Source: Pleurocapsales cyanobacterium LEGE 10410 (GTDB taxonomy: Bacteria; Cyanobacteriota; Cyanobacteriia; Cyanobacteriales; Xenococcaceae). Taken from it: 54,402 nt of DNA. Below are positions 17,082 to 46,545 of the stretch, piece by piece. Under the pieces are notes generated by a model. It had not been told where the DNA came from. It saw nothing but the letters and a program-made list of their open reading frames with translations, and ran no database searches. Position numbers and translations under genes: made by a program. Positions within the stretch are counted from its first letter, which is position 1. Every line of letters starts with the position of its first letter. The stretch lies in assembly GCA_015207195.1 (NCBI GenBank), contig JADEXJ010000022.1, forward strand, positions 1-54,402, given 5' to 3'.

Positions 17082-20000
17082 ATGACCAAATCTTCTAAAC
17101 ACAGCAGTATTTTAGTGGAGCTTCAAAGCGAAGTTGACCACCTGGAAAAGACTCTTATCGAGCATATACGGAGTAAGACGAACATGACTTCTAAGGTATC
17201 AGCCAAGACCGAGCCTGCAAACAGTCAACTGCAACAGATTCCGATCGCAATAGTGGGAATGGCTTCAATTTTTCCGCGATCGCATAACCTACAGGAATAT
17301 TGGCAGACAATTATCGGGAAAGAAGACTGCATTACCGATATTCCTCCTTCTCGCTGGAGCATAGATGATTACTACGACCCCGACCCAACAGCCCCTGATA
17401 AAACCTACTGTAAGAGAGGGGGATTTATTCCAGAGATTGATTTTAATCCGATGGAGTTCGGGCTTCCTCCCAACCAGCTTGAGGCAACAGACATTTCCCA
17501 ATTACTAGCCTTGGTAGTGGCAAAAGAAGCTTTTAAGGATGCAGGGTATGAGGATAAATCTTATAATCGCGAGCGCACTGGAGTAGTTTTAGGCGTAGCT
17601 TTAGCTCGACAGTTAACCATGCCTTTAGCTGCCAGACTACAATATCCAGTCTGGGAAAAAGCTTTGAAAAGCAGTGGTTTATCCGCTGCCGATACAGAAA
17701 AAATTATTAATAAGATTAAAGATGCTTATATAAACTGGACACCTAATGCTTTCCCTGGAATGTTAGCCAACGTGGTAGCGGGAAGAATTGCCAATCGTTT
17801 CGATCTAGGAGGAATGAACTGTGTTGTAGATGCTGCTTGTGCTAGCTCTTTTGGCGCGCTATCGATGGCGATCGCGGAATTGACTTCTGGTCGGGCGGAC
17901 ATGATGCTGACGGGGGGTGTGGATACCGATAATTCGATTACCGCCTATATGTGCTTTAGTAAGACCCCTGCGGTTTCTCGCGGTGAGAAACCCAAGCCTT
18001 TTGATGCCGATTCCGACGGGATGATGTTAGGAGAAGGGATTGGCATGTTAGTCTTAAAGCGTCTTGCTGATGCTGAACGAGATAAAGATCGTATTTATGC
18101 TGTAATCAAAGGAATCGGTACTTCTAGCGATGGTCGTCACAAGAGCATCTATGCACCACGTCCCGAAGGACAGATGAGAGCTTTGCGTCGTGCCTACCAA
18201 GAAGCTGGTTTTGAGCCAACTACGGTAGGAGCGATCGAGGCACACGGTACGGGAACGATGGCTGGAGATCCAGCAGAATTTGCTGCACTCAAAACAGTGT
18301 TTGGCGAGAATAATGATGGTAAACAGCAGATTGCTTTAGGTAGCGTTAAGTCACAGATCGGGCATACCAAAGCAGCAGCAGGGGCAGCCAGCCTGATCAA
18401 AACAGCCTTGGCACTGCATCATAAAATCTTACCGCCGACGATTAACGTGACCAAACCCCATCCCAAGCTAGGAATTGAAGATTCTCCCTTTTATCTCAAT
18501 ACCGAAACCAGACCTTGGTTAAAGTCTCCAGGGGAAAACCCACGACGAGCGGGAGTAAGTTCTTTTGGCTTTGGCGGAACAAACTATCATATCGTTTTAG
18601 AAGAACATCAGCCAGAACACCAAGCTGTGTATCGTTTGCACAACACTCCCCAAGCCATACTGATAGATGCGCCTACCCCCGAAAAATTATTAGATAGGTG
18701 CAAAGAAATATTACAACAGCTTCGAGCGGATACGGGGGAAGATTATCTTGTCAAACTGATTGAAGAAAGCAAAACCAAAGAAATTGCTGTCGAGGCTGCA
18801 CGTTTGGGCTTGGTCGCTGCATCCGTAACCGAGGCGACTGAGAAACTACAAAAGGCGATTAACACTTTACAAAAATCTCAAACCCCTTGGGAACATCCAT
18901 TAGGAATCTTTTACCGTCAAACTGGAATGGAAACCGCAGGTAAAGTAGTGGCTCTATTTTCGGGACAGGGTTCTCAGTATCTGGAAATGGGTAGAGAATT
19001 AACGATGAACTTTCCTGCTTTGCGCGAGAGTTATCGCCAGCTCGATCGCCTGTTAGAGCGAGACGGTTTAGAACCCATATCCCAAACTGTATTCCCCCCA
19101 CCAATATTCGACCCCAAGCAGCAACAGCAACAGAGAGCAACTTTACAGCAGACAGAAATCGCCCAAAGCGCGATCGCAGCTTTCAGTACTGGCTTATACA
19201 AGATTCTGCGACGGGCAGGATTCAAACCAGATTTTGTCGCAGGACATAGTTTTGGCGAATTTACCGCACTTTGGGCAGCAGGAGTACTGAACGATCGAGA
19301 TTATTACTTCTTGGTCAAAGAAAGAGGACAGGCGATGGCTACGCCCACTACAGAAGCAGGGGCAATGCTGGCAGTGCGAGGAGACGCGAACCAGATTAGA
19401 ACTCTAATCGCCGATTTTGAAGAAGTGGCGATCGCCAACTGGAATTCTCCCCAACAGGTAGTTATAGCAGGGAATAAAGCAGAAATAGATCTGGTTAAAG
19501 TAAAATTGGAGCAGCAGGGCTATTCTGCCGTTATCTTGCCCGTTTCCGCAGCTTTTCACACATCTCTGGTAGGTCATGCCCAAGCACCCTTTGCCAAAGC
19601 AGTAGAGTCTGTCACCTTTAATCCACCTCAGATTCCCATTTTTACTAATGTATCAGGCAATCCCTATCCCAATAATCCCCAAGACTGCCAGAAGATTCTC
19701 AAAAAACACTTGCTCTCTCAGGTATTATTTCAAGAAGAAATTGAAAATATCTATGCTGCTGGGGGTACTTGCTTTGTGGAGTTTGGACCGCGAAGTATTC
19801 TAACTCATCTAGTTAAAGAAATTCTCAGCGATCGCCCCCACCTAGCCGTGGCGTTAAATCCCAGTCGTCAAAAAGATAGCGATCAACAACTAAGAGAAGC
19901 GGTAGTGCAGTTGCGGGTTGCCGGTTTGAGCTTGTCTAATCTCGACCCTTATCAGGTAATGCAGACCAAACAACAAGAGAAACATCCTCTAAACGTCAGC

Positions 20001-21464
20001 TTAACTAGCGTCAACTATGTCTCGGAAAAAACCAAACAAACTTTTAAACGAGCATTACAGGATGATACGGCAGTACGTATAGTGGGAACCAAGGGATGCA
20101 AAGACATGGGGACGCGGAGACAAGACGTGAAGAAACCTCAAATAATATTAGATCGAAGCAATTTTACTGTCACTAACACAAATTCTGCCAGCAATAACGT
20201 AATTACCGCCAAACCAAATGGGCATTCAAAACAACTAGCCACTATGAACGATCTATCTATGACTCCATCTTCTACTAAGAATCCTCAAAAGCAAGTAACA
20301 CTGACTCACGAACGTATCTTAAGTAGTTTGGAATATAGTCTGACGCAGTTTCATCTCTCACAACAGGAAACTTTACAGGTTCATCGACAATATCTCGACT
20401 ATCAATCTCAATACGCACAGACTTTCTTCGGGTTAATGCAGCAGCAAAATCAGTTGTGGACAAACTTGCCAACCTCGACCCAGGAGATTCAGGTAAAAAC
20501 TGCGGTTATCGAAAGTGCGGAACGCAGCATGATGAAGTTTCAAGAACATCAAGCTAATACTTTGCGAGTTCACGAACAGTATTTAACTCACCAGGCAAAT
20601 TATGCTAAAAACTTTTTCTTACTAACCCAGCAAAGTTACGCTCAGTTTTTGGCGGGTGACTATATAGATAATAGCAAAGATGTGACTCCGTCAATATATA
20701 GTGAAGAGCGAGAAATTACAGCCTGGCAGATCGCTACTCTACCAGAGGAGACAGCTAACGGTAACGGACATCATCCCCGATCCCAGGTAGTCGAGGAGAC
20801 AGCTAACGGTAACGGACATCATCCCCGATCTCAGGTAGTCGAAGAAGATATCCCATCAGAATCATCCAATGTAGCTACAGCAGCCCCTTCCGTTCCAGAA
20901 ATAGATTTTACTACCCTGCGCGAAACTTTGCTCGATGTGGTTAGCGAAAAAACAGGCTATCCCGCAGAAATGCTGGAACTAGATATGGATCTGGAGGCAG
21001 ATTTAGGGATTGATTCCATCAAACGAGTGGAAATCTTGGGCGCATTGCAAGAAGAAATGTCCGATCTACCCCAACCCAACCTAGAAGACTTGGGGGATTT
21101 ACGTACTCTCGGTCAAATTATCGAATACTTGCGCTCTTTCGATCGCCATACGGAAGTAAAATCAGAGGAAGCCAAGTCGCAGCCTGAGTCTATAGAAACA
21201 ACTTTCCTCAATATTGTCAGTGAAACAACAGGTTATCCCATCTCCAGCCTCAATCTAGAGATGAATCTCAAAGCAGATTTAGGTATCGATCTGGTAAAAC
21301 AGCAGGCGATCTTTAATGCTCTACAACAGCAAATGCCCGATGTCTTGCAGACTAAAGAATTGTCCGAGATACAAGCATTAGACACCATTGGTGAAGTCCT
21401 AGACTATCTAGACCCCAGTCAGGCTGAAAAAAAAACTCTGAACCAAGTGGGAGCGATCGCTTAA
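17082..21464 (+). CDS. hglE: HglE/PfaA-like polyketide synthase: KS-AT-coiled coil-ACP-ACP
   Basis: 1460 residues. The ketosynthase spans about 53-510 with Cys253 in VDAACASS, His388 in EAHGTGT and His428 in GHTKAAAG, so it is active by motif. The acyltransferase spans about 625-965 with Ser723 in GHSFGE. A helical Gln-rich region follows (about 1100-1200), characteristic of HglE/PfaA proteins. ACP1 has the phosphopantetheine Ser1312 in GIDSIKR. ACP2 has Leu1404 in its place (GIDLVK) and cannot be loaded. The frame ends just after a nine-A run at 21427-21435, where the -1 frame opens into KR sequence. It starts an island for a heterocyst-glycolipid-like or polyunsaturated-type acyl chain. No strong Shine-Dalgarno is seen at the ATG. 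Confidence 0.85.
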   Translation: MTKSSKHSSILVELQSEVDHLEKTLIEHIRSKTNMTSKVSAKTEPANSQLQQIPIAIVGMASIFPRSHNLQEYWQTIIGKEDCITDIPPSRWSIDDYYDPDPTAPDKTYCKRGGFIPEIDFNPMEFGLPPNQLEATDISQLLALVVAKEAFKDAGYEDKSYNRERTGVVLGVALARQLTMPLAARLQYPVWEKALKSSGLSAADTEKIINKIKDAYINWTPNAFPGMLANVVAGRIANRFDLGGMNCVVDAACASSFGALSMAIAELTSGRADMMLTGGVDTDNSITAYMCFSKTPAVSRGEKPKPFDADSDGMMLGEGIGMLVLKRLADAERDKDRIYAVIKGIGTSSDGRHKSIYAPRPEGQMRALRRAYQEAGFEPTTVGAIEAHGTGTMAGDPAEFAALKTVFGENNDGKQQIALGSVKSQIGHTKAAAGAASLIKTALALHHKILPPTINVTKPHPKLGIEDSPFYLNTETRPWLKSPGENPRRAGVSSFGFGGTNYHIVLEEHQPEHQAVYRLHNTPQAILIDAPTPEKLLDRCKEILQQLRADTGEDYLVKLIEESKTKEIAVEAARLGLVAASVTEATEKLQKAINTLQKSQTPWEHPLGIFYRQTGMETAGKVVALFSGQGSQYLEMGRELTMNFPALRESYRQLDRLLERDGLEPISQTVFPPPIFDPKQQQQQRATLQQTEIAQSAIAAFSTGLYKILRRAGFKPDFVAGHSFGEFTALWAAGVLNDRDYYFLVKERGQAMATPTTEAGAMLAVRGDANQIRTLIADFEEVAIANWNSPQQVVIAGNKAEIDLVKVKLEQQGYSAVILPVSAAFHTSLVGHAQAPFAKAVESVTFNPPQIPIFTNVSGNPYPNNPQDCQKILKKHLLSQVLFQEEIENIYAAGGTCFVEFGPRSILTHLVKEILSDRPHLAVALNPSRQKDSDQQLREAVVQLRVAGLSLSNLDPYQVMQTKQQEKHPLNVSLTSVNYVSEKTKQTFKRALQDDTAVRIVGTKGCKDMGTRRQDVKKPQIILDRSNFTVTNTNSASNNVITAKPNGHSKQLATMNDLSMTPSSTKNPQKQVTLTHERILSSLEYSLTQFHLSQQETLQVHRQYLDYQSQYAQTFFGLMQQQNQLWTNLPTSTQEIQVKTAVIESAERSMMKFQEHQANTLRVHEQYLTHQANYAKNFFLLTQQSYAQFLAGDYIDNSKDVTPSIYSEEREITAWQIATLPEETANGNGHHPRSQVVEETANGNGHHPRSQVVEEDIPSESSNVATAAPSVPEIDFTTLRETLLDVVSEKTGYPAEMLELDMDLEADLGIDSIKRVEILGALQEEMSDLPQPNLEDLGDLRTLGQIIEYLRSFDRHTEVKSEEAKSQPESIETTFLNIVSETTGYPISSLNLEMNLKADLGIDLVKQQAIFNALQQQMPDVLQTKELSEIQALDTIGEVLDYLDPSQAEKKTLNQVGAIA
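20745..20840 (+). repeat. Perfect-unit 48-base tandem duplication inside the synthase gene
   Basis: Two copies of 48 bases (20745-20792 and 20793-20840) differ at one position (CCC versus TCT codon end). Each encodes the 16 residues EETANGNGHHPRSQVV in the flexible linker before ACP1. In-frame, and recent by its near identity. Confidence 0.9.
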
Positions 21465-22289: not shown

Positions 22290-23987
22290 ATGGCACAAAT
22301 CGATCGAAATTCCGTATGTCTTGTCAGTGGCGGTGGTAGAGGAATTACCGCCCAGGCTGCGATCGCCCTCTCCCGACAATATCAGTGTAAGTTCATCTTA
22401 TTAGGTCGTTCGACCATCACCCAACCCGAACCAGAATGGGCGCGAGACTGTGACGGTGAAATGGAGTTGAAAAAGCGAATCTTAGAACATCTCCTGCAAC
22501 AAGCTGAAAAACCAACCCCAAAAATGGTGCAGCGAGAATATAAATCGATTGCAGCTAAAAGGGAAGTCGAGCAAACTTTAATGCAAATTAGCCAAGCAGG
22601 AGGACGAGCAGAATATCTTAGTGTAGATATTACAGACACCAACGCCGTCGCACGACAGGTAGCTGCTGTCGAAGAAAGACTGGGTAAAGTTAAAGCGATC
22701 GTTCACGGTGCGGGAAATCTAGCGGATAAACCAATTGAAAAAAAAACCCAGCAGGATTTCGATCTCGTTTACGCGCCCAAAGTTAAGGGGTTGGAAAATC
22801 TGCTTAACTGTATCAGTCCTAGTCAGTTAGATTGTTTAGTATTATTCTCTTCGGTAGTTGGTTTCTATGGCAATGCGGGTCAGACCGATTATGCGATCGC
22901 TAACGACATACTTAACAAGACTGCCCATTTAATTAAACAAAAACATCCTCAGTGTCATACGGTAGCAATAAACTGGGGTCCTTGGGATAGCGGGATGGTT
23001 AGCCCCGAACTAAAACGAGCTTTTGCCGAACGTAACATTCAAACTATTCCCGTTGCTGTGGGAACGCAAATGTTAACTAGAGAACTTGCCTCAGATAACG
23101 GTCGGGTGCAGGTCGTAATAGGTAGCCCCCTAAAACCCCCTGTAATTTCCGTCCCTACCGAACCAAAAACCTACCAAATACATCGACGTTTATCTCTAGC
23201 AGCCAATCCCTTCCTACACGATCATGTAATTATGGATCGTCCCGTATTACCTGCCACTTGCGCGATTAACTGGATTGCTAATACTTGCGAACAAATTTAT
23301 CCTGGCTATACATTTATCGGCTGTAGTAATTTTAAAGTTTTAAAAGGTATTGTATTTGACAAAAACTTAGCCGACAAATATGTTTTAGATCTAGAAAAAC
23401 AAGCAACCAAAGATTCGCAAAAAATCAAACTTTATGCTAAAATTTGGAGTAATAGCAAGAACAAAATTCGCTATCACTTCAGCACAAAATTAGAATTAGT
23501 TAGAAAAGTTGATGATGTTTGTAGCTACAAATCATTAGATTTGTCTCAAGACAAAACAGATGTCGGTCGAGAAAACTTATATCAGAACGGCGATAAAAGT
23601 TTGTTTCACGGTGCTTCTTTTCAAGGAGTAAACAGAGTTTTAAATATTAGTTCAAACAAGCTGACGGCGGAATGTTTTCTGCCAGAACTAAGCAAGACCC
23701 AACAGGGACAGTTTCCCGTTCAAACTTTTAATCCTTATCTGGTAGACGTACAGGTTCATGCTTTGTGGCTATGGCTACAGCACAATCATCAAGAGATTTG
23801 TTTACCGTCAGAAATAGTTAGATACGAACAGTTGGCAGCTATAGCCTTTGAGCGAACATTTTACGTTTCTTGTGAGATAAAAAACAAAACCAAAACTGCC
23901 GTGGTAGCCGATATAATTGCCCACGACAAACAAGGAAAAATCTATTCAAGAATGCAAAGGGCAAAAGGAACAATAATATCTTTCTAG
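22290..23987 (+). CDS. Ketoreductase-dehydratase protein, C-terminal part of a PfaA/HglE-type synthase
   Basis: 565 residues. Residues 1-275 are a SDR ketoreductase: NADPH loop VSGGGRGITAQAA (about 13-25), an HGAGNLAD motif, catalytic SSVVGFYGNAGQTDYAIAND (Ser and Tyr) and NWGPWDSGM. About 290-565 resembles a polyketide dehydratase double hotdog, with HDHVIMDRPVLPATCAINW carrying the catalytic-type His and downstream Pro. The residues fit reduction of the beta-ketoacyl-ACP to the hydroxy- and then the enoyl-ACP. In intact PfaA-like proteins this sequence follows the structural KR half directly; here a 70-base spacer with stops divides them. The start Met has only a weak AAAGAA upstream. Confidence 0.82.
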   Translation: MAQIDRNSVCLVSGGGRGITAQAAIALSRQYQCKFILLGRSTITQPEPEWARDCDGEMELKKRILEHLLQQAEKPTPKMVQREYKSIAAKREVEQTLMQISQAGGRAEYLSVDITDTNAVARQVAAVEERLGKVKAIVHGAGNLADKPIEKKTQQDFDLVYAPKVKGLENLLNCISPSQLDCLVLFSSVVGFYGNAGQTDYAIANDILNKTAHLIKQKHPQCHTVAINWGPWDSGMVSPELKRAFAERNIQTIPVAVGTQMLTRELASDNGRVQVVIGSPLKPPVISVPTEPKTYQIHRRLSLAANPFLHDHVIMDRPVLPATCAINWIANTCEQIYPGYTFIGCSNFKVLKGIVFDKNLADKYVLDLEKQATKDSQKIKLYAKIWSNSKNKIRYHFSTKLELVRKVDDVCSYKSLDLSQDKTDVGRENLYQNGDKSLFHGASFQGVNRVLNISSNKLTAECFLPELSKTQQGQFPVQTFNPYLVDVQVHALWLWLQHNHQEICLPSEIVRYEQLAAIAFERTFYVSCEIKNKTKTAVVADIIAHDKQGKIYSRMQRAKGTIISF

Positions 23988-24925: not shown

Positions 24926-25036
24926 ACTGTTCGCGACGCGGAGCTAGTCCTTTAGAGTAGCTTTTAGCTTTTAAAAGTTTCATATTTTCAGTTGGTAAAC
25001 AGACAAACCATCTGTGTTCATCTGTGTTCATCTGTG
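24926..25036. repeat. REP-like fragment and direct repeat between genes
   Basis: 24926-24965 carries CTGTTCGCGACGCGGAGC and AGTCCTTTAGAGTAGC, similar in wording to the palindromic insert near 9041-9140. Positions 25008-25036 repeat TCTGTGTTCA two to three times, a dispersed repeat common in front of cyanobacterial genes. Because this repeat fills it, the 5' extension of the next reading frame is not counted as coding. Confidence 0.6.
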
Positions 25037-25063
25037 GACTCCAATACATCAAATAATCAGACA

Positions 25064-27754
25064 ATGCAAACATCAAAATCGACACCCACGCCAAAAATAG
25101 CGATCGCGGGTATAGATGCTTACTTCAGTTCCTATAGCACCCTTGATGCTTTTGAACGCAGTATCTATGAAGGACATTTACCTAGTTCGGCTAAGAGCGA
25201 ACTATCTGCATCAGAAATAGTAGAGAAGTTCGAGCGTGTTGCTGGTGTTGCTCTTCAGGATGCAGCCATTACTTCAGATATAAATATAGCTGTCGTTGTT
25301 GCCAACAATAGCAAGCAGAAGCTGGCTGATAATATTATTGAAGTCGAGTCTGTGCTTGATGCTCTATCAGTAGCACGAGAACTATTAAGTAAACCACAAG
25401 TAGAAGCAGTGCTGGTGGGGGGAATCGATCTTAATTCGGCAAATCAGGCTGTGGGTGTAGTAGTGTTGAAGCGTTATGAAACCGCTAAAGGCGATCGCAT
25501 TTATGCCATTATTGATGCTCTTACCGCAGTTGAAGCCAAAGACATTACCTATTTAGAAATTCTTAGCGATCGAAGGCTGGAAGAAGTAGAAATCGAGCGG
25601 GAAATTACCAATTATCTCCCTACTACTGTTAATAGCTGTGCCGTCTCTAGCGTAGCCAATTCGGGTTATTTCGGTATTGCTGGGGAGATTGCCAGCTTAC
25701 TCAAAACCATACTCTGTATCTATTATCGCTATCTTCCCTCCGTTCCTCGATGGCAACAGCCAGCAAATTTAGAGCTTTGGCAAAAAAGTCCTTGTTATGT
25801 GGCATCCTGTTCTAAACCCTGGTTTCTCGAAGCAGGCGTGCGTCAAAGAGTTGCTGCGATTAACAATATTGATCGCGACTCCCAGATAATTTTAGCCGAA
25901 GAAGTAGAGACACAACAGCGCGGTAATGCTTATTTAGAACAAATCCCTAGTTACCTTTTTCCCGTAGCAGCAGCCGACTCTGCTACCTTATTAGAACGGC
26001 TTCGCACCCTGCAACAAACTATAGAAGCTATAGAAGCTATAGAAGCTATAGAAGCTGGCGAGCTATCCCAAGTTGCCCGCCAAACCTTGATAGATTATCA
26101 ACATAGCCAAGCAAACTATGCCCTGGCAATCGTTGGCAAAAACAAACAGGAAATACTTAAAGAATGCGATCGCGCTTTAGCTGGTGTCGTCAAAGCCTTT
26201 GAAACTGGTAAAGACTGGCAAACCCCTGGAGGTAGCTACTTTACCCCCAATCCTCAAGGTAAAAAAGGCAAGGTGGCTTATGTCTATCCTGGTGCTTACA
26301 ACGCCCATCTAGGGATAGGTAGAACTCTGTTTCGCTTATTTCCCAATCTAATAGACGATCCTGTAATTAAGAGTACCTGTAACCGCATTGCTAAGCTTGA
26401 AAAGCTGCTCTATCCCCGAAGCATCAAAAAACTTTCGCCTAGAGAACTGGAAGCTAAAGAGCGAGAGTTGATGAACGATGCTCTAGCCATGCTCGAATCA
26501 GAAACTGGCTTTGCAGGGTTGATTACCACCATTTTACGAAATTGTTTTCAAGTCAAACCTCAAGCTGCTTTTGGCTATAGTCTGGGTGAGATTAGCATGA
26601 TGTACGCTCAGGGAATTTGGGGGGATATCGATCGCAGCAGTAATGTTCTCAACACCTCTCCGTTGTTTAAAAATCGTCTGGCTGGTACAAAAGAGGCTGT
26701 TAGAGAATATTGGCAACTTCCTGGGGAACACCAAGGAGAACTGTGGCGTACTTATGTGGTAATGGCAAATAGCGATCGCGTTAGAGAAACAATACAGCGA
26801 GAAGATCGCGTCTATCTAACTCAGATTAGTACCCCCAAAGAAACCGTTATTGCGGGCGTTCCTCAAGGCTGTGAGAGGGTAATTGCAAGTCTTGGCTGTG
26901 ATGCTTTTCGCGCTCCTTTCAACCATGTCATCCACTGCGAAGCGATAAAAAGCGAATATGATGAGCTAATGAAGCTGAATACTCTACCATTACGAGAGAG
27001 TTCGGGAATTACTTTTTATTCTGCTGCTAAGTATCAACCAATCGAGCTTAATAGTCAGGAAATTGCCCACAGCCTGACGCAAACTCTGATTCATCAGCTA
27101 GATTTTCCCCGTTTAGTCGAGCGAGTTTACCAAGATAACTACCGCATTTTTATTGAAGTTGGCGCGGGAAGCAATTGTTCTCGCTGGATTAAAGATATTC
27201 TCCAATCAAAAGAACATACAACTATCTCGCTGCATCGCCGAAACACAGATGATTATTCTTCTTTGATTAAAGCCTTGGCTAGATTAGTCAGTCATCGAGT
27301 AGAACTAAATCTATCTCCTTTGTATGAAGAGATATCGCGATCGCACCCAGACAAATTAACAGTTAAAACTCCGATTGAAAATAGTAAATCAATAGATTTA
27401 TGGCAAGAAAAATCTACAGCAGTATTTTCTTCTTTTTCAAAGAATGTGGTTGATAATCGATCCAAAGAAACCGTATATGGCGTAAAAGATACTATTGATA
27501 ATTTGAGACCTTCTTATATTTTAAATAAGCAACATAGACCCTTAACTACACGAGATATCTTAAAAAATGAGAACAATAAACTTATATTATGGCAACATAA
27601 TCACAATTCATTAAAACAAAAGTCGCTCAATAACTATGCTTTATCTAAAGCACATTCTTTGTTTATCGAACAAGACACAAAAAACTTAGATGGTTCGGAA
27701 AAAATGATTAGAACCAAAATAAAGTTTTTACAACAAATACTAGATAACTATTAG
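25064..27754 (+). CDS. PfaB-like protein: degenerate ketosynthase plus acyltransferase
   Basis: 896 residues from the ATG at 25064. Residues about 10-300 are a shortened KS-like domain (KIAIAGIDAYFSSYSTLDAF, VEAVLVGGIDLNSANQAVG, SSVANSGYFGIAGEIASLL) without a DxxCSS active Cys and without the His of EAHGTGT, so it is non-catalytic. About 400-770 is an acyltransferase with Ser506 in FGYSLGEISMMYAQG. The basic C-terminal tail (about 780-896) has no recognised domain. PfaB family proteins occur in all PUFA synthase loci and in heterocyst glycolipid clusters (HglC/HglD type), where they influence chain product. An EAI repeat sits at about 320-332. The upstream extension to 24992 is repeat sequence. 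Confidence 0.82.
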   Translation: MQTSKSTPTPKIAIAGIDAYFSSYSTLDAFERSIYEGHLPSSAKSELSASEIVEKFERVAGVALQDAAITSDINIAVVVANNSKQKLADNIIEVESVLDALSVARELLSKPQVEAVLVGGIDLNSANQAVGVVVLKRYETAKGDRIYAIIDALTAVEAKDITYLEILSDRRLEEVEIEREITNYLPTTVNSCAVSSVANSGYFGIAGEIASLLKTILCIYYRYLPSVPRWQQPANLELWQKSPCYVASCSKPWFLEAGVRQRVAAINNIDRDSQIILAEEVETQQRGNAYLEQIPSYLFPVAAADSATLLERLRTLQQTIEAIEAIEAIEAGELSQVARQTLIDYQHSQANYALAIVGKNKQEILKECDRALAGVVKAFETGKDWQTPGGSYFTPNPQGKKGKVAYVYPGAYNAHLGIGRTLFRLFPNLIDDPVIKSTCNRIAKLEKLLYPRSIKKLSPRELEAKERELMNDALAMLESETGFAGLITTILRNCFQVKPQAAFGYSLGEISMMYAQGIWGDIDRSSNVLNTSPLFKNRLAGTKEAVREYWQLPGEHQGELWRTYVVMANSDRVRETIQREDRVYLTQISTPKETVIAGVPQGCERVIASLGCDAFRAPFNHVIHCEAIKSEYDELMKLNTLPLRESSGITFYSAAKYQPIELNSQEIAHSLTQTLIHQLDFPRLVERVYQDNYRIFIEVGAGSNCSRWIKDILQSKEHTTISLHRRNTDDYSSLIKALARLVSHRVELNLSPLYEEISRSHPDKLTVKTPIENSKSIDLWQEKSTAVFSSFSKNVVDNRSKETVYGVKDTIDNLRPSYILNKQHRPLTTRDILKNENNKLILWQHNHNSLKQKSLNNYALSKAHSLFIEQDTKNLDGSEKMIRTKIKFLQQILDNY
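26021..26056 (+). repeat. Four 9-base repeats inside the PfaB-like gene
   Basis: ATAGAAGCT is repeated four times without change, giving IEAIEAIEAIEA in a helical linker between the KS-like and AT domains. Length variation here would stay in frame. Confidence 0.9.
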
Positions 27755-27793
27755 TTATTAACTATCGTGCATACAAAACTATCTAGAGGAATC

Positions 27794-29404
27794 ATGATTA
27801 GTAGCGATATATTACCAAGAACCAAAGCGATCGCCCATCCACCCTTAGCTTTTGAGCCAGTAGAAATAAAAACCAGACTACTAAATTTAGAGCAACCTTG
27901 TTATGTCGTACAACACCAGGGAAAAATTGGCATTACCAACGAAGATTGGTGGGATGAAGCAGAATACAATAAAGACACAGAACTACTCATGGCTGCCCCT
28001 CCTCTATCCTGCGTTGGGTTGGGCGATCGCGCTTTTCTCGACTTTCATGGGGTAAAGTATGCTTACATGACGGGAGCAATGGCGGGGGGAATTGCTTCGG
28101 AGGAATTAGTTATTGCTTTGGGTAGACAAGGCGTTTTAGCGAGCTTTGGTGCGGGTGGCTTGGGTCAAACCAGGGTCGAAGCTGCAATTAAACGGATCCA
28201 GCAGGCTTTACCCAACGCTACTTATGCTTTTAATCTGCTTCACAGTCCGAATGAACCAGAACTAGAACGTAATTCTGTAGAGCTTTATCTTAAATACGGT
28301 GTTAAGACTGTAGAAGCCTCGGCTTTTCTCGACCTTACTCCCAATATCGTATACTATCGCGCTGCGGGACTGGGATTAAATACTGCCAACCAAATCGAGA
28401 TTAAGCATAAAGTCATCGCCAAAATTTCCCGACGGGAAGTAGCTACTAAGTTTCTGCAACCCGCACCGCTCAAAATCCTTGAAGAATTAGTCTATTTAGG
28501 AAAAATCACCCAGTTGCAAGCAGATTTAGCCCAAAAAGTGCCGATGGCTGACGATCTTACCGTAGAAGCTGATTCTGGCGGACATACCGATAATCGTCCT
28601 TTAGTATGCTTGTTTCCTTCCATTGTCGAACTAAGGGATGAAATTCAAAACCAGTACAACTATCAAAACCCCGTAAGAATTGGCGTAGCGGGGGGGATCT
28701 CCACTCCCCATGCAGCTTTAGCAGCCTATATTATGGGAGCAGCTTATGTGGTTACTGGCTCGGTAAATCAATCCTGTGTCGAGGCGGGAACTTCTCAACA
28801 CGCCAAAAAGCTACTCGCCGAAGCCCAAATGCACGATGTGATGATGGCACCTGCTGCGGATATGTTCGAGATGGGAGTCAAGCTACAGGTTCTCAAACGG
28901 GGGACGATGTTTGCCTTGCGCGCTCAAAAACTCTACGAGCTTTATAAAACTTACGACTCTATTGCAGACATCCCGACTCAGGAACAAACCAAAATCGAAA
29001 AACAAATCTTCCGCATGAGCTTAGATGAAGTTTGGCAACGTACCGTTAACTACCTATCCCAACGCAACCCCGATAAACTAGCCAAAGCCAACAGCAAACC
29101 TAAATTAAAAATGGCTCTAATCTTTCGTTGGTATTTGGGTTTATCTTCCCGATGGTCGAATACTGGCGAAGCAGGAAGAGAAATTGATTACCAAATCTGG
29201 TGTGGTCCAGCGATGGGTGCATTTAACAACTGGGTTGAAGGCTCTTATTTAGAACCAGTCAGCAGTCGCCATGTCTATGATGTAGCGTACCACATTCTTA
29301 CTGGTGCAACATATTTATACCGAATACAGAATCTAAAACTACAGGGATTAGATCTGAGCGATCGCTATAGCCAGTATCAACCAACAAAAATTACCAACCA
29401 CTAA
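27794..29404 (+). CDS. PfaD-like FMN-dependent enoyl reductase
   Basis: 536 residues from the ATG at 27794, which is preceded by AGAGGA at 6 bases. The 2-nitropropane-dioxygenase-type TIM barrel is indicated by YAYMTGAMAGGIASEELVIA, VLASFGAGGL, ADDLTVEADSGGHTDNRP with the catalytic His, and RIGVAGGISTPHAALAAYIM and GAAYVVTGSVNQ binding flavin phosphate. PfaD (HglG-type in heterocyst clusters) reduces the enoyl-ACP double bond for the PUFA-type synthase. It lies 39 bases after the PfaB-like gene and 3 bases before the next, in one transcript. Length is typical of PfaD (about 540). Confidence 0.9.
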   Translation: MISSDILPRTKAIAHPPLAFEPVEIKTRLLNLEQPCYVVQHQGKIGITNEDWWDEAEYNKDTELLMAAPPLSCVGLGDRAFLDFHGVKYAYMTGAMAGGIASEELVIALGRQGVLASFGAGGLGQTRVEAAIKRIQQALPNATYAFNLLHSPNEPELERNSVELYLKYGVKTVEASAFLDLTPNIVYYRAAGLGLNTANQIEIKHKVIAKISRREVATKFLQPAPLKILEELVYLGKITQLQADLAQKVPMADDLTVEADSGGHTDNRPLVCLFPSIVELRDEIQNQYNYQNPVRIGVAGGISTPHAALAAYIMGAAYVVTGSVNQSCVEAGTSQHAKKLLAEAQMHDVMMAPAADMFEMGVKLQVLKRGTMFALRAQKLYELYKTYDSIADIPTQEQTKIEKQIFRMSLDEVWQRTVNYLSQRNPDKLAKANSKPKLKMALIFRWYLGLSSRWSNTGEAGREIDYQIWCGPAMGAFNNWVEGSYLEPVSSRHVYDVAYHILTGATYLYRIQNLKLQGLDLSDRYSQYQPTKITNH

Positions 29405-29407: not shown

Positions 29408-30886
29408 ATGAACCAAAATCAGATCGACGCGGATACCATCGCCACTTGGCTAACAAACAATATAGCCGAACAGTTAGAAGTCGAACCCAATGAAATAGAT
29501 CGGTACGAACCTATCGAAAACTACGGCTTAGATTCAGCCCAGGGAATGATCGTCGTCAGTCGGGCGGAAAAACAATTTGGCTTGGAGATCTCGCCGATGC
29601 TTCTCTGGCACTATCCGACAATTGCAGCACTATCCGAGCGTCTAGCCGAAGAACCAGCAGCAGAAACTCCAACCGAGCCTTCTTTCCCCGTTCTCGATTT
29701 AGCAGCAGAAGCAGTTCTCGATCCTGCTATTGTTCCCGATGAAATATGGGATTTCTCCCAGCCACAACGCATCTTTTTAACTGGTGCGACGGGGTTTTTA
29801 GGAGTTTATATTCTTCGAGAACTATTAGATAAAACCAACGCAGACATCTACTGTTTGGTTCGAGCGAGCGATCGCACTAGTGCCAGCCAAAGGCTACAAA
29901 ATAATCTCAAACGTTATGCTTTGTGGGATGAAACGATTGGTTTTGGTTCTCGAATTATTCCCGTAGTAGGAGACCTGGCAAAGCCGATGTTGGGGTTAGA
30001 TGCCGATTTATTTGAGAGTTTAGCAGGGGCGCTCGATACGATCTATCACAGTGCAGCCATGCTGAACTACGTCTATCCCTATTCAGCCATGAAAGCTGCT
30101 AATGTTTTGGGGACGCAAGAAGTTCTCCGATTAGCCTGTTGGAGGAAAACCAAACCCGTTCATTATGTTTCCAGCGTGGCAGTGTTTGAAGCTGCTGCTT
30201 ATGCGGGTAAACTTGTTAGGGAAAGCGATTCTTTTGACCATTGGCAGGGTATCGATCTGGGTTACTCTCAAACCAAGTGGGTAGCGGAAAAACTAGTTAA
30301 AATTGCTAAAACCAGGGGACTTCCTGTGGCGATCTATCGACCACCGTTGATTGCGGGACATAGTAAAACGGGACTCTCCAACACCGATGACTTTATTAGT
30401 CTGATGCTCAAAGGCTGCATCCAAATGGGTAGCTTTCCCGATCTCGACTATCTGTTAGATATGTCTCCTGTAGACTACGTAAGTCAGAGTATTGTCTATT
30501 TATCCCAGCAGCCGGAATCTATCGGACGAGCCTTTCACCTGCAACATCCCCAGCCAGTTCATCTGAGTAAGATAGTTAAACTATTGAGCTTTGTGGGCTA
30601 CAAAATCGATCGCCTTCCCGATCGACAATGGCAAGCAGAGCTAAAGAATACAGTAGAGCCAGACAATCCCCTGTTTACCCTGCAACCCTTCTTGTTAGAA
30701 AAACGGACAGAGGCACAATTAACAATTTTAGAGCTTTATTTACAGTCAAACAGACCCACGATTAGCTGTCAGGACACTTTAAAAGCCCTTAAAGGATCGG
30801 GAATTTCTTGTCCTCCCATCAACCATAAATTACTGCTCAATTACTTCCGAAGTTTTCTCGATAGCGGATTTTTACAGGCTGCCTGA
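29408..30886 (+). CDS. hglB: ACP-thioester reductase, HglB-like
   Basis: 492 residues. An ACP occupies 1-85 with the phosphopantetheine Ser43 in [11 protein letters not shown] thioester-reductase (SDR-e type) domain follows, with the NADPH loop [18 protein letters not shown] near 124 and the [12 protein letters not shown] catalytic Tyr/Lys near 286. Such proteins release an acyl chain from its ACP reductively as aldehyde or alcohol. In Anabaena HglB has this architecture and gives the fatty alcohol of heterocyst glycolipids. Start codon only 3 bases after the PfaD-like stop. The ACP is nearly a duplicate of the separate ACP encoded just downstream. Confidence 0.88.
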
Positions 30887-33748: not shown

Positions 33749-33792
33749 AAAATTATTTGTCTGTAACTTCCCTCTACCCGAAATCAACTCGA

Positions 33793-35046
33793 ATGAATAC
33801 ATTAACCTTAATCATAGTATTCGGTCTACTCGGACTAGTGCTTTTTGAGTCATACTTCACCTCAGTCTTTATCAAGTCGTTTAGCCAGAATAAACGCGAG
33901 CTATATGAGGAAAACGAATTGCCAAAAGTGGCGATTGCCTTATGTTTGCGAGGTGCAGATCCGTTTTTGTCCGACTGTTTGCAAGCGTTATTAAATCAAA
34001 ACTATCCCCAGTATGAATTAAAAATTGTCGTTGATAGCGAACGAGATCCCGCTTGGAAAATTGCCATGGAAAACCTTCAGCATCAAACAGCTATACCAGT
34101 TCAGATTAGTCCCTTACGAGTTCGGCGGGAAACTTGCAGTCTTAAATGCAGTGCTTTAATTCAGGCTATCTCGGAATTGGATGCAGACTGTGAAATAATT
34201 GCCTTAATAGATGCCGATACTATTCCCCATGTCAACTGGCTGCGAGAATTAGTCAGTCCCCTAAAAGACCCTAAAATCGGACTCACCACTGGCAATCGCT
34301 GGTATGTTCCAGGGAAGCAATGGGGAACTTTATGCCGTTATCTGTGGAATATCGCTGCTGTCGGACAAATGAATCTTTATCGCATCCCCTGGGGCGGTAC
34401 TCTGGCGATTAAAACCGAAATAGTTCGTCAAGCACGACTGCTAGAGAAGTGGAAACAGGCGTTTGGTGAAGACACCATGTTGTGTCGTGTTTTGCAAGAA
34501 GAAGGAATACAGATCGAGTCCGTCGCTGCTTTGATGATGGTCAATCGCGAAGAGTGTACCTTACCTAATTTCAGACGGTGGGTTAGCCGTCAACTGTTAA
34601 CTGCCAAACTCTATCATCCAGGCTGGCGGGCAATTCTGATTTATGGCACGATAACCTGCTTGATTCCCGCTACGACTGCTCTATCAACCCTAATTGCTTT
34701 GTTTGCGGGGCAAGGGTTCTCTGCTGTCGTACTTACCACCAGTTTATTTATCTACATTATAGTCTTACTTGGATTGATTAGCGTCTATGAACGAGCGATC
34801 CGACAAAAACTTGCACTGCGAAACGAAAGATTACCAGACTATAGTGCGCGGGACTTATTGAGATTCATGTTGGCTATTCCCTTGACTCAATTAGTCTGCG
34901 CGATCGCCCTCTGGCAAGCTATGTTGACTCAACAGGTAGAGTGGCGCGGGATTACCTATCAAATCAAAGGTCCTTGGGATATTAAACTGCTAGAATATTT
35001 CCCCTATCAATATCTCAACCGAACTAACCCTAAGACTTCTTTGTAG
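33793..35046 (+). CDS. Membrane family-2 glycosyltransferase, ceramide-glucosyltransferase-like
   Basis: 417 residues from ATG 33793 (a TTG at 33757 would add 12 poorly supported residues). One N-terminal transmembrane helix (about 2-24) and two or three C-terminal ones (about 290-330 and 360-385) flank a cytosolic GT-A domain. Visible motifs: VVDSERDP, the metal-binding DADT in ALIDADTIPH, EDTMLC as the catalytic base region, and NFRRWVSRQL, a variant of the (Q/R)xxRW motif of processive and lipid glycosyltransferases. It would add a sugar to a membrane lipid, by context the long-chain alcohol from the synthase. In Anabaena the analogous step uses HglT, a different family. Confidence 0.8.
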   Translation: MNTLTLIIVFGLLGLVLFESYFTSVFIKSFSQNKRELYEENELPKVAIALCLRGADPFLSDCLQALLNQNYPQYELKIVVDSERDPAWKIAMENLQHQTAIPVQISPLRVRRETCSLKCSALIQAISELDADCEIIALIDADTIPHVNWLRELVSPLKDPKIGLTTGNRWYVPGKQWGTLCRYLWNIAAVGQMNLYRIPWGGTLAIKTEIVRQARLLEKWKQAFGEDTMLCRVLQEEGIQIESVAALMMVNREECTLPNFRRWVSRQLLTAKLYHPGWRAILIYGTITCLIPATTALSTLIALFAGQGFSAVVLTTSLFIYIIVLLGLISVYERAIRQKLALRNERLPDYSARDLLRFMLAIPLTQLVCAIALWQAMLTQQVEWRGITYQIKGPWDIKLLEYFPYQYLNRTNPKTSL

Positions 35047-35251: not shown

Positions 35252-37033
35252 ATGATGACGCAAAACGGTTCTCAAAATACACGCTTAAACTTTAACTCTG
35301 ATTCCAGAGAATTGAATCAAGATAAAATTCAAATTTTAATTGTTGATGATTCCGAAGCAATTCGCGAAGGTTTCAAAGTCATGCTACAGCAGGAAGCAGA
35401 CTTGAAAATTACAGGATTGGCACGTAATGGCAGGGAAGCAATTGAACTGATAAAAGCCCGAAAGCCCGATGTAGTCCTGATGGATCTGGAAATGCCAGAA
35501 TTGAATGGCATCAGCAGTACTCAAATTATCTCCGAGCAGTTTTCCACAACTAAGGTTTTGATTATTAGCGACCAGGTACAGAATAGCTACATCAGCCAAT
35601 CACTAGAAGCAGGAGCGAAAGGCTATTTCCTCAAGCAAACTCCAACCGCAGAAGTTGCCCAAGGAATTAGAAATGTTTATCAAGGCTTCTGTCAGTTTAG
35701 TCCTGGGTTACTAGAAAATTATATTACTCATACTGCTCATTTAACAGCACAAACCGACGATTCCCTGTTGCCAGAAAGCGAACTTAATTACGATCTGGTT
35801 AATAGTTCGCCCGATCCTATAGCTGTACCTCTCGAACCAGTCTCCCCCAAAGGCAAACCGTGGCTGCGGTGGATCGCAATTGGGGCAACATTAGTCATAA
35901 CCGCCTTAGCAATTACTACCTGGGCGATCGCCAAACTACAGCCTGATTTCTACAATCGAATCGTTGGCAATCCTCAAGCACCAACGCCAGTTACTCCACC
36001 CGTACCCACACCGACGGCGATATCTGCTTTAGGAAAGATCGAACCCGAAGGAGAAATTATTCAACTGTCAGTATCTGCTGCTGCTGAAGGTTCTAGAGTT
36101 GACCAATTACTAGTCGAGCGTGGGGAGAGAGTCAAGCAAGGGCAGGTAGTTGCGGTTCTCGATAGTTACGATCGCGCTGCTGCTGCCTTAGATCGAGCGA
36201 AAACTAATGTAAGCATAGCGCAAGCTAATTTAGAGCGAGTCCAAGCAGGGGCAAAACAGGGAGATATTGACGCGCAAAAGTCGGCTATTAATCGTTTAGA
36301 AGCCGAATTGAGGGGTCAAACAGCCAGTCAAGAAGCAGATATTTCTCGCCTTAAAGCTGAATTAGACAATGCCCAAGGAGAATATGATCGCTATCAGCAG
36401 TTGTTTAATGAGGGTGCTATTTCGGCACAAGAACGAGATACCAGACGTTTACGAGTCGATACGGTTCGACAGCAGCTAGAGCAAGCCAGTGAAAATTTAA
36501 ATCGCACGATTGAAACTACCCAAGTACAGAGAAATGAAGCTCAAGCCAGACTAGAAAGTATTGCCGAAGTTCGCCCCGTAGACGTGGGAGTAGCACAAGC
36601 GGAATTAGAACAAGCCAACGCTGCGGTCAAACAGGCTCAAGCAGATTTAGCTTTAACCGAAGTGCGATCGCCTATCGACGGTCGAGTATTAAAGGTTGAT
36701 GTTCGTCCTGGTGAAGTTGTGGACGAGCGAGGAATTATTTCTATCGGGCAAACCGAGCGCATGTACGTAGTTGCTGAAGTCTACGAAACTGACATAGATC
36801 GAGTTCGGCTAAGACAAAAAGCGATAATTACGGGGGCAGCTTTTTCCGAAGAACTTGAAGGTGAAGTGGTTCAGGTGGGGTTGGAAGTTAAGCAGCAAAA
36901 TGTTTTTGAGTCCGATCCTTTGGTTAATACCGATAACAAAGTAGTAGAAGTGAAAATTCGTCTTGCTCCTGAGTCAAGTAAAAGAGTTACTGCCCTAAGC
37001 AACTTGCAGGTACAGGTAGTGATTGTCCTTTAA
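35252..37033 (+). CDS. devB: Response-regulator receiver fused to a DevB-type membrane fusion protein
   Basis: 593 residues. Residues 26-140 are a CheY-like receiver: Asp32/Asp33 in ILIVDDSEA, phosphoacceptor Asp78 in VVLMDLEMPELNG and the conserved Lys in YFLKQT. A linker leads to one transmembrane helix (about 206-226). About 250-593 is a HlyD/DevB periplasmic adaptor: lipoyl-like VDQLLVERGERVKQGQVVAV, a long coiled coil (about 290-440), then DVRPGEVVDERGIISIGQ and a beta-barrel. It should link the inner-membrane DevC-DevA ABC exporter to an outer-membrane channel. The receiver is on the cytosolic side, so phosphorylation could gate export. The next gene is devC, 37 bases away. Confidence 0.9.
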   Translation: MMTQNGSQNTRLNFNSDSRELNQDKIQILIVDDSEAIREGFKVMLQQEADLKITGLARNGREAIELIKARKPDVVLMDLEMPELNGISSTQIISEQFSTTKVLIISDQVQNSYISQSLEAGAKGYFLKQTPTAEVAQGIRNVYQGFCQFSPGLLENYITHTAHLTAQTDDSLLPESELNYDLVNSSPDPIAVPLEPVSPKGKPWLRWIAIGATLVITALAITTWAIAKLQPDFYNRIVGNPQAPTPVTPPVPTPTAISALGKIEPEGEIIQLSVSAAAEGSRVDQLLVERGERVKQGQVVAVLDSYDRAAAALDRAKTNVSIAQANLERVQAGAKQGDIDAQKSAINRLEAELRGQTASQEADISRLKAELDNAQGEYDRYQQLFNEGAISAQERDTRRLRVDTVRQQLEQASENLNRTIETTQVQRNEAQARLESIAEVRPVDVGVAQAELEQANAAVKQAQADLALTEVRSPIDGRVLKVDVRPGEVVDERGIISIGQTERMYVVAEVYETDIDRVRLRQKAIITGAAFSEELEGEVVQVGLEVKQQNVFESDPLVNTDNKVVEVKIRLAPESSKRVTALSNLQVQVVIVL

Positions 37034-37070: not shown

Positions 37071-38246
37071 ATGATTTTATCTATCCCTTTAGCCTGGCTG
37101 CAATTAGTTCATCGCAAGATTAAATTTATCGCTACCATAGCAGGAATTGCCTTCGTAGTCGTACTCTTATTTATGCAGTTAGGATTTCAAGATGCTTTGT
37201 TTGAAAGTGCGGTTAGAGTACATCAAGTTTTAGAAGGAGACTTATTTTTAACCAGTTCTCAATATAAAGCTTTGACTTCGCAACAAAGTTTTCCTCGAAC
37301 ACGTTTATATCAAACTCTAGCTTTTGAAGGGATAGAATCAGTCAGTCCTTTATACTTCCAATTTGGTAAATTAAAAAACATTCTCGATGGTCAAAAATAT
37401 TCAATCTTTGTATTGGGAGTCGATCCCAGCAAGTTAAACTTCAGCCTCGAAGAGATCGAGCGAAATATCAACAAGTTAAAACTTCCCGATACTGCTCTTT
37501 TCGATCTTAGTTCTCGACCTGAATTTGGTCCTATAGCCCAAAAATTCACGACGGATAATGATACAAAAATTGAAATTTCTCCTTTTAATCAAATAACTAA
37601 AGCCAAAAAATTTACAATCGAAGGTTTGTTTAGCATCGGTCCTTCCTTTGGCATTGATGGTAATTTAATTACTAATTATTCGAGTTTTCTGCAGGCTTTT
37701 CCCGATCGCAATATAGAAAATATAGATTTAGGGCTAATAACCCTCGAACCATACCGAGATCCAGAGAAGATTCGTGACTATCTAGTTGCTAGTTTGCCCG
37801 AAGATGTAAATGTTTTAACTTTTGACGAATTCGTTCAATTGGAAAAAAGCTATTGGGATTTGCGAACGCCTATTGGCTTCGTATTTAAAATCATGGTTTT
37901 TATGGGGTTTATCGTCGGTATCGGTATTACTTACCAAATACTTTATAGTAATATTTCTAATCATCTAGTTGCTTATGCCACTTTAAAAGCAATTGGATTT
38001 ACCAATAGATATTTATTAACTGCTGTATTTCAACAGGCTCTCCTACTAGCGTTACTGGGTTTTGTTCCAGGAATAATTGTTTCCCTAGGCTTATACGACT
38101 TAGCTAAAAATGTAACTCATCTACCAGTAATCATGGATTTAGAAAAAGGGTTAGTCGTATTTTTGTCTATTATTTCTATGTGTTCTATTTCTGGTTTTAT
38201 GGCAGTTCAAAAATTGCGGTCTGTAGACCCTGCGGATATTTTTTAA
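37071..38246 (+). CDS. devC: DevC-type ABC exporter permease
   Basis: 391 residues. Four transmembrane segments (about 15-40, 270-295, 318-345, 355-375) flank a large extracytoplasmic domain (about 45-265), the FtsX/MacB-like layout of DevC. Conserved pieces include the start IPLAWLQLVHRKIKFIATIA, VFKIMVFMGFIVGIGITYQI and the end KLRSVDPADIF. DevC works with DevA and DevB to export heterocyst glycolipids in Anabaena; here the substrate is inferred to be the lipid of this island. Overall length and ends look intact. Confidence 0.9.
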   Translation: MILSIPLAWLQLVHRKIKFIATIAGIAFVVVLLFMQLGFQDALFESAVRVHQVLEGDLFLTSSQYKALTSQQSFPRTRLYQTLAFEGIESVSPLYFQFGKLKNILDGQKYSIFVLGVDPSKLNFSLEEIERNINKLKLPDTALFDLSSRPEFGPIAQKFTTDNDTKIEISPFNQITKAKKFTIEGLFSIGPSFGIDGNLITNYSSFLQAFPDRNIENIDLGLITLEPYRDPEKIRDYLVASLPEDVNVLTFDEFVQLEKSYWDLRTPIGFVFKIMVFMGFIVGIGITYQILYSNISNHLVAYATLKAIGFTNRYLLTAVFQQALLLALLGFVPGIIVSLGLYDLAKNVTHLPVIMDLEKGLVVFLSIISMCSISGFMAVQKLRSVDPADIF

Positions 38247-38374: not shown

Positions 38375-38818
38375 ATGTTGAATACTATTTTAAGTTTATT
38401 TGGTGTAGGTTTATCAGTCGATCCCCTTACGGGACTTGAAATTGATAGCAGTTTAGCAGAAACACGGGTAGATCCCCTTACGGGTAGCACGACCGTAACT
38501 CTGTCAGCTATTGACGTGGTAGGGGTCGATCTAACTCAAAGAGTCACCGCGGATGTTCTAGGTAGTGATGTAGTCAGCGTCGATCCTTCTGAAGGAGTTA
38601 CCGTCAATGTCGCTGACGAAGTTATAGATGTTGACGTAATCGAAGGTGCTGCATCTGTTGAGGTTGGTACGACCTTAGTAGGTGTTGACCTAACCGAGGG
38701 GATTGTTTTTGGTGTTGGCGAAGAACTATTTTATGCTGACTTGACAGAAGGGGTAGCGATCGCTACTGAAGATCTGCTCGAATTTGGTATTACTCTTCCT
38801 GCTACTTTAGATATTTAA
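38375..38818 (+). CDS. Small acidic repetitive protein of unknown function
   Basis: 147 residues, preceded by a good GGAGTG ribosome site. It is built from degenerate units of about 10-20 residues, with VDPLTG twice, VDPSEG, VGVDLTQ, VGVDLTEG and YADLTEGV, that is, a regular V-D-x-T/S-E-G pattern suggestive of a beta-helical or repeat fold. It has no Cys, almost no Lys or Arg and a net acidic charge. Only the first residues (MLNTILSLFGVGLSV) are hydrophobic, too short for a clear signal peptide. Located between devC and devA in the same direction, so probably linked to the exporter or lipid layer. No family recognised. Confidence 0.65.
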   Translation: MLNTILSLFGVGLSVDPLTGLEIDSSLAETRVDPLTGSTTVTLSAIDVVGVDLTQRVTADVLGSDVVSVDPSEGVTVNVADEVIDVDVIEGAASVEVGTTLVGVDLTEGIVFGVGEELFYADLTEGVAIATEDLLEFGITLPATLDI

Positions 38819-39113: not shown

Positions 39114-39851
39114 ATGAAATCGACATATTTAAATCAAAAATCTATTGTTGAAATTAATAATCTCTATCACTATTTTGGTGCTAAATCATTATGTAAACCT
39201 ATACTACTAAACATCAACTTAGACCTTAAACCTAAAGAAACTGTCATATTAACTGGTCCATCAGGATCGGGAAAAACCACCTTACTTACCTTAATCGGTG
39301 GTTTGCGTTCGGTTCAAGCAGGCAGTCTGAGATTCTTAGGTCAAGAACTACTCGGTGCTAATCAAAACCAACTGGTAAACATACGTCGTCAAATTGGCTA
39401 TATTTTTCAAGGACACAATTTGCTAGAGTTTTTGACGGTCAGACAAAATGTCCAGATGTCTCTAGAACTAGATAAAACTATCTCCGAACGAACCGCCAAA
39501 CTCATGGCAGAAGAAATGCTACACGCCGTTAAGCTCGGCAGTCATATTAATTACTATCCCCAACAACTGTCGGGGGGTCAAAAACAACGAGTAGCGATCG
39601 CACGCGCCTTAGTAAGCCGTCCTCAACTGTTTTTGGCTGATGAACCGACAGCAGCCTTAGATGGTAAAACAGGACGTGATGTCATTTTGCTGATGCGTAA
39701 ATTAGCCCTAGAACGAGGGGCAGCTATTCTAATAGTCACTCACGATCGGCGTATTTTAGATAGTTACAATGACCGAGGTAGAAGTACAAACGGTATAAAC
39801 TACCATCGCACTATTCGTATTGAAGACGGACGACTATACAATCAAAGATAA
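39114..39851 (+). CDS. devA: DevA-type ABC transporter ATP-binding protein
   Basis: 245 residues. Walker A GPSGSGKTTLL (about 44-54), Q-loop FQGHNLLEFL, signature LSGGQKQRVAIARAL, Walker B LFLADEPTAAL and H-loop VTHDRR are all present. The start ATG follows 295 non-coding AT-rich bases after the repetitive protein gene, so it may have its own promoter, unlike most devBCA operons. It energises DevC. The C-terminal residues NGINYHRTIRIEDGRLY match the DevA family end. Confidence 0.9.
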   Translation: MKSTYLNQKSIVEINNLYHYFGAKSLCKPILLNINLDLKPKETVILTGPSGSGKTTLLTLIGGLRSVQAGSLRFLGQELLGANQNQLVNIRRQIGYIFQGHNLLEFLTVRQNVQMSLELDKTISERTAKLMAEEMLHAVKLGSHINYYPQQLSGGQKQRVAIARALVSRPQLFLADEPTAALDGKTGRDVILLMRKLALERGAAILIVTHDRRILDSYNDRGRSTNGINYHRTIRIEDGRLYNQR

Positions 39852-45498: not shown

Positions 45499-45665
45499 AA
45501 TAAGCAGCTTATGTATTTAGTTTCTGGTTTAAAATCTCTTTAGCAGCTTCAAAATCGGCATTTACCAAATAGGAAAAATGATAATAGTTAGCCAGATAAA
45601 AATTACAGTTGAATTTTTGATATCGATCGGCGATCGCTAAAAAACCATATCTAGCGTCAGACTTT

Positions 45666-45702
45666 TAAACTTTTTTAAACTTTTTTAAACTTTTTTAAAC
45701 TT
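45666..45702. repeat. 10-base tandem repeat between phnK and phnL
   Basis: CTTTTTTAAA is repeated three to four times right after the phnK stop. Poly-T stretches on the plus strand correspond to poly-A on the coding strand, so it is not an intrinsic terminator for phnK. Confidence 0.85.
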
Positions 45703-45716
45703 AGTTAGTAGTTGAA

Positions 45717-46487: not shown

Positions 46488-46545
46488 TAGCTGTAATCGA
46501 TAATTTTGGTTGTTCGTTGTTGATGGCGATCGCTTGGAAATAATT

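Follow-up and report, generated by a model that had tools for sequence, protein, structure and literature searches.

A response-regulator receiver built into a DevB export adaptor of a cyanobacterial lipid island, and related receiver fusions on other envelope proteins of the same family

One reading frame of Pleurocapsales cyanobacterium LEGE 10410 joins a complete response-regulator receiver, a single predicted membrane helix and a DevB-type periplasmic adaptor. The gene lies in the window, the 54,402-nucleotide stretch of contig JADEXJ010000022.1 (assembly GCA_015207195.1) that was analysed here, and its features and neighbours are listed in Table 1. Judged from its sequence, the protein is somewhat more probably than otherwise a transmembrane response regulator, which would have an export machine as its output and would be switched after translation.

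Table 1. Features of the fusion gene and of the surrounding lipid island (window coordinates)
Feature	Coordinates	Strand	Remarks
PfaA-type KS-AT-ACP synthase	17082..21464	+	lipid island
KR-DH protein, PfaA C-terminal part	22290..23987	+	lipid island
PfaB-like protein	24992..27754	+	
PfaD	27767..29404	+	NCBIfam
ACP-thioester reductase	29408..30886	+	Pfam, NCBIfam
Family-2 glycosyltransferase, directly upstream of fusion gene	33757..35046	+	Pfam, NCBIfam
Receiver-TM-DevB fusion gene	35252..37033	+	593 aa, ATG to stop in a single frame, stop within coordinates
Receiver domain, NarL/MctR-like	35333..35662	+	Pfam Response_reg, residues 28-137, E 1.7e-25
Acidic pair D32, D33	35345..35350	+	
Phospho-acceptor D78 (by position)	35483..35485	+	
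Switch residue S106, S/T position	35567..35569	+	
Conserved K128 in YFLKQT	35633..35635	+	
Linker, residues 161-207	35732..35872	+	
Single predicted membrane helix, residues 208-226	35873..35929	+	hydropathy 2.06 over 19 residues
DevB periplasmic adaptor part, residues 257-591	36020..37024	+	TIGR02971
devC, ABC permease	37071..38246	+	TIGR01185, 426 bits, cut-off 290
147-aa frame between devC and devA	38375..38818	+	no Pfam family; G019 counterpart 50% identical
devA, ABC ATPase	39114..39851	+	TIGR02982, 315 bits, cut-off 296

The single-frame order given in a preliminary description of this gene, a receiver followed by one helix and a DevB adaptor, was recovered by domain searches and hydropathy. 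The adaptor part scores 337.9 bits against TIGR02971 (NCBIfam cut-off 129) and covers the profile from position 1 to 327 of 327, which places it in the DevB family. The receiver finds its top NCBIfam profiles among the MctR/NarL/GacA types, and its best solved relatives in a PDB sequence search are VraR, DesR and NarL; none among the best 60 of the 196 PDB matches spans both halves of the fusion. D32, D33, D78 and the Lys of YFLKQT had been named correctly, and S106 completes the site, so the domain has the acidic pair, acceptor Asp, S/T and Lys expected of a response regulator. Like the receivers of NarL/FixJ-type regulators, it carries the full site; different from these regulators, the protein contains no LuxR-type HTH in the Pfam scan and is not a transcription factor of that kind, its output being the helix and the periplasmic adaptor.

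A hidden stop or frameshift between about residues 140 and 200, joining two genes artificially, had been named as the finding that would undo the fusion. Residues 141–260 contain no run of at least seven A/T or at least six G/C, the frame is free of N, and each of the five other frames carries 6–10 stops at the joint. Because the joint is clean and full-length fusions are present in a second and a third assembly (G019 and G197), an assembly artefact or hidden stop in the window was excluded. Adaptors of the DevB kind have an N-in topology. Within 15 residues of the helix there are three K/R before it and two after it, a weak charge bias. Provided that DevB retains the N-in topology, the receiver would be cytosolic, in line with the preliminary description. 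The two-sequence structure model of the fusion is poor (mean pLDDT 43.5).

The fusion gene, devC and devA form the end of a lipid synthase island of the hgl/pfa type, which also holds a methyltransferase gene; the island genes were typed by Pfam and NCBIfam. Permease and ATPase adjoin the fusion and both score over their cut-offs, so the genes constitute a DevBCA set in the export and lipid setting proposed earlier, and the arrangement is kept in G019 and G197. Between the KS-AT-ACP and KR-DH genes lies a 179-aa frame (21680–22219) that corresponds to an internal piece of PfaA (profile positions 1792–1976), so the PfaA-type synthase is split over separate genes. Beside the island, on the minus strand, are genes for a 158-aa LuxR-type HTH protein without receiver (14592–15068) and for a 310-aa protein of no assigned kind (15183–16115); both also flank the island in G019, where they are 80% and 73% identical, respectively. 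Elsewhere the window encodes a 1294-aa protein with malectin and Calx-beta domains (4738–8622) and, on the minus strand, the phosphonate (C-P lyase) genes PhnJ and PhnI and two ABC ATPases (44758–50092). A promoter scan gave 12 sites, with 12.3 expected.

Like DevB/HgdB of Anabaena sp. PCC 7120 (DevBCA-HgdD, HgdBC), the window protein has a TIGR02971 part, devC and devA beside its gene and an hgl/pfa-type island. HgdB interacts with HgdD (TolC) in vitro, and its membrane helix is given as residues 13–42 (PMC6161253). With the helix already at that position, HgdB as described there leaves no room for an N-terminal receiver, whereas the window fusion has 207 residues, including the receiver, before its helix. 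The Pleurocapsales strain LEGE 10410 has been reported to contain an hgl island with hgdBC homologues and to make C24 heterocyte-glycolipid analogues, an hgl island being defined as a cluster with homologues of at least 7 of 19 Anabaena genes (PMC11804610). Judged by Pfam and NCBIfam types, the window island is alike in content to the hgl islands of non-heterocystous cyanobacteria in that paper, whose main text does not contain the terms 'response regulator', 'receiver' or 'two-component'. In that work the heterocyte-glycolipid analogues of a Pleurocapsales strain occurred under every growth condition examined (PMC11804610), which gives no hint of switched export and counts against it. Two-component systems are known to regulate tripartite exporters, as described through gene expression (PMC8277102); different from the control described there, the receiver in the window is built into the adaptor. 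In searches of an open-access library we found no description of receiver-adaptor fusions, nor the phrase 'transmembrane response regulator'; as far as these searches reach, the architecture of receiver and export adaptor is undescribed.

The orthologue in G019, of the window's genus, is a full-length fusion, 66% identical over residues 7–593, in the same island (KS-AT 71%, DevC 80% and fusion 65–66% identical). In G197, of the window's family, receiver and DevB are encoded in one 625-aa frame and the island is kept (KS-AT 62%, DevC 69%). G191 and G058, of family f33, have the same island with devC and devA (KS-AT 58–59%, PfaD 71–72%), but their DevB has no receiver. The DevB tree unites the proteins of the window, G019 and G197, together with a fragment of the interrupted G205 copy, in one clade (support 100/100), and the sister of this clade comprises nine unfused DevBs, all from f33. 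Homologues are not always encoded as two genes, the other outcome that had been named as a refutation: eight DevB copies with receiver are uninterrupted and two are interrupted. The interrupted copies are L081 (G205 contig 121), with the receiver and DevB parts in separate overlapping frames, and L083 (G207 contig 27), where a TAA stop interrupts the frame directly behind the receiver. L084 (G207 contig 653), which frame length had suggested as a fusion, contains no receiver and was rejected.

When 195 genomes of the order were searched with the full protein, 22 matches reached E<=1e-105, two fused (G000, G019) and 20 unfused; the latter were opened (L019–L038) and all lack a receiver. Nor was a separate receiver gene present in the ∼1.5-kb flanks of L019–L038 and L052–L069, except at L060, with a weak receiver match ∼0.8 kb from the adaptor. 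A peptide-pattern search of genome contigs, with patterns that were poorly chosen, returned a single locus (L039), whose 479-aa DevB has no receiver, and of the 1320 plasmid records with a match, none covered 80% of the query.

The idea that the fusion is unique to the window's lipid island was rejected. We opened 78 uninterrupted fusions (L116 among them runs off its contig end), 74 in the window's family and four in family f31 (L118–L121), and each of the 27 genomes of the family survey, Stanieria cyanosphaera PCC 7437 included, has at least one. The earlier view of a single exporter was too narrow, since across the family many adaptors, and Wzz-like proteins too, carry a graft of this kind. 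By output, the 78 comprise 63 HlyD-type adaptors, 12 Wzz-like proteins, one Wzc-like kinase and two BON proteins. By similarity, the adaptors divide into 8 DevB, 26 HlyDa (type I HlyD-like, ∼760 aa), 4 HlyDb, 10 HlyDc, 7 HlyDd, 1 HlyD3, 4 NHLM-type and 3 RND-like members. Pfam or NCBIfam support comes from a sample of 25 fusion proteins, and the Pfam scans of these 25 contain no DNA-binding part. In 46 of 50 fusions a hydrophobic segment lies 32–139 residues behind the receiver.

The Wzz/GNVR-like fusions (L090, L093, L123, L184–L186, L188, L191, L194, L196, L197 and L202) point, by their sequences, to polysaccharide chain-length machinery. Their label 'Wzz-like' is based on mutual similarity to L093 and on the two-helix layout; three of the four scanned are without a Pfam output family, and L093 has only a sub-cut-off GNVR match. 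L127 (5340–8093, G046) is a 918-aa frame with receiver, Wzz, GNVR and a ParA/AAA_31-type kinase part, as in a Wzc-like tyrosine kinase. The BON fusions, L128 (7058–8128, G000 contig 25) and L130 (6423–7532, G046), contain receiver, coiled region, membrane helix and BON in a single frame. The fusions of Stanieria cyanosphaera PCC 7437 (G086) include L102, L124, L125 and L126.

With a receiver profile built from 17 fusions, frames of at least 550 aa were found in 27 of 27 family genomes among the matches listed. Across 100 genomes of the order (E<=1e-42, 42 candidates per genome scored) such frames occurred only in five genomes of the window's own family and four of f31, and across 194 genomes of the phylum (E<=1e-46, 21 candidates per genome scored) only in G000 and G019; as these searches were sampled and strictly thresholded and weaker fusions could be missed, the true spread is perhaps wider. 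We opened HlyDa fusions in 26 of the 27 family genomes; in the remaining one, G197, a receiver match lies near the end of a contig. Among 44 matched genomes of other families none has an HlyDa fusion, as judged from 21 opened loci and from the frame length of the other 23 (462–636 aa). The HlyDa homologues L098 (7424–9784), L099 and L100 of family f28 have a PG_binding_1-like domain, identified by Pfam in L098, and an extra hydrophobic segment at the place of the receiver. For the NHLM type, the window's family has six frames of 660–722 aa (all four opened contain the receiver), one of 556 aa with a stop, and three more distant members that are also short (481–496 aa); the 17 full-length matches in other families, compared by frame length, are 476–524 aa. 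For HlyDc, the ten frames of the window's family are 657–739 aa (five of five opened have a receiver, the rest are judged by length), and full-length matches elsewhere with at least 43% identity are 486–627 aa, except for one of 684 aa in f31, known by its length.

The catalytic site is largely intact across the fusions. D33 and K128 are invariant in all 78 receivers; the D32 position is D in 75 and E in L191, L196 and L197; the S106 position is S or T in 77 and A in L127; and the D78 position is D in 75, G in L198 and N in L128 and L130. The full site (D, D, D, S/T, K) is therefore present in 71 of 78 fusions. With Asn as acceptor in both, the BON fusions look like pseudo-receivers.

In HlyDa, mean amino-acid identity (210 pairs, 21 sequences) is 0.78 for the receiver, 0.46 for the linker and 0.63 for the adaptor. 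Restricted to pairs with dS<2, the receiver has a median pairwise dN/dS of 0.096 (129 pairs), against 0.118 in the adaptor (41 pairs) and 0.384 in the linker (127 pairs); these values are rough because synonymous sites are near saturation, and the contrast with the linker is what counts. In HlyDa, constraint on the receiver matches that on the adaptor, whereas the linker is drifting, and the low receiver dN/dS therefore indicates selection on the receiver as a domain. For DevB-I, with 1–3 usable pairs, dN/dS is 0.150 for the receiver and 0.152 for the adaptor, and the gapped linkers have a mean identity of 27%.

A single origin, with 50 fusion receivers as one clade, was rejected (p-AU 2e-6, long branches being present), as was one clade of the eight fused DevB parts (p-AU 0.0067, run without the interrupted copies L072 (G205) and L083); the eight DevB receivers alone as one clade were not rejected (p 0.061). 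In the receiver tree, 28 of 40 non-fusion receivers form a 100/99 clade holding no fusion. Grafting thus occurred more than once, or once with later losses, and the trees do not separate gains from losses.

No kinase gene is present among the 13 of 13 window frames of at least 350 aa that were scanned, nor on contig C273 (4.2 kb). Of the 91 HATPase_c places in the genome, two lie on C259, some 10–12 kb from the C259 fusion, while C152 and C273 have none; the fusion receivers are orphans by position. HisKA_3 places number seven in G000 and zero in G019; since the orthologue is present in G019 all the same, a partner of the usual NarL type cannot be taken for granted.

For the window protein, we propose that a histidine kinase encoded outside the window would phosphorylate D78 in the cytosol. 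The oligomeric adaptor would bring receivers together, and phosphorylation would alter how they pack next to DevC/DevA at the mouth on the cytosolic side. The altered packing may change ATPase coupling or the recruitment of a TolC-type channel, and export of the island's hgl-like lipid would thereby be switched post-translationally by signalling. The intact site, the low receiver dN/dS in HlyDa, the hydrophobic segment behind most receivers, the lack of a DNA-binding part in the 25 scanned proteins, the contrast in HlyDa fusions between this family and others, the occurrence of the receiver on unrelated output types and the same island with an unfused DevB in f33 are in favour of such a switch; the lost site residues in some fusions, the interrupted G205 and G207 DevB copies, the lack of a HisKA_3 match in G019 and the absence of a kinase from the scanned frames of the window are against it. 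Some of these observations would suit a receiver that serves for docking, oligomerisation or positioning, binding a partner or placing the exporter, with phosphorylation of little weight. L198 and the two BON fusions have kept open frames without the acceptor, so some grafted receivers manage without it, and neither gene position nor the HisKA_3/HATPase_c survey yielded a kinase partner. However, 62 of the 63 adaptor receivers retain acidic pair, acceptor Asp, S/T and Lys, which mere docking need not preserve, and we regard such a role as rather unlikely. Direct control is preferred to docking mainly because of what the outputs have in common: they are oligomeric proteins that span the envelope and have their N-terminal end in the cytosol.

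Stand-alone and sink receivers exist, and the scanned fusions are devoid of any nucleic-acid-binding output, as would fit a phosphate sink or a feedback sensor in which the state of the exporter sets phosphoryl uptake and information passes from the envelope to the cytosol. A sink needs no membrane anchor, though, and attachment to so many export and polymer machines better fits control of the machines, which makes a sink or sensor improbable. That a receiver gene simply ran into an adaptor gene and persisted neutrally, or that assembly erred at the joint, could be read from the two DevB copies interrupted at or near it and from the varied origin of the receiver parts. Against such an accident stand the full-length orthologue at 66% identity, the number of uninterrupted fusions, the low receiver dN/dS and the presence of the HlyDa fusion in 26 of the 27 family genomes; by these counts it is largely refuted, and we give it very little credence. 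Returning to direct switching, we tentatively extend it to a possible new class of transmembrane response regulators, though we would stop just short of calling this probable: NarL-like receivers would have been grafted repeatedly, in one cyanobacterial family, onto the cytosolic ends of DevB, type I HlyD, NHLM HlyD, RND-like and Wzz-like proteins and a Wzc-like kinase, and phosphorelays would switch lipid, protein and polysaccharide export directly, as a second output layer beside transcription.

Genes of this kind may be filed as response regulators or as HlyD proteins, a caution for annotation. The family provides a natural experiment, since both the lipid island and the adaptor family occur with the receiver and without it. 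Rapid control of ABC and type I exporters can thereby be tested directly in strains that grow in culture, for example Stanieria cyanosphaera PCC 7437. If the proposal is true, a two-component system would reach through the membrane to act on the export machine, with no transcriptional step. The recurrence of the receiver on many envelope machines suggests that export in this family may be switched directly by signalling proteins, and not only via genes.
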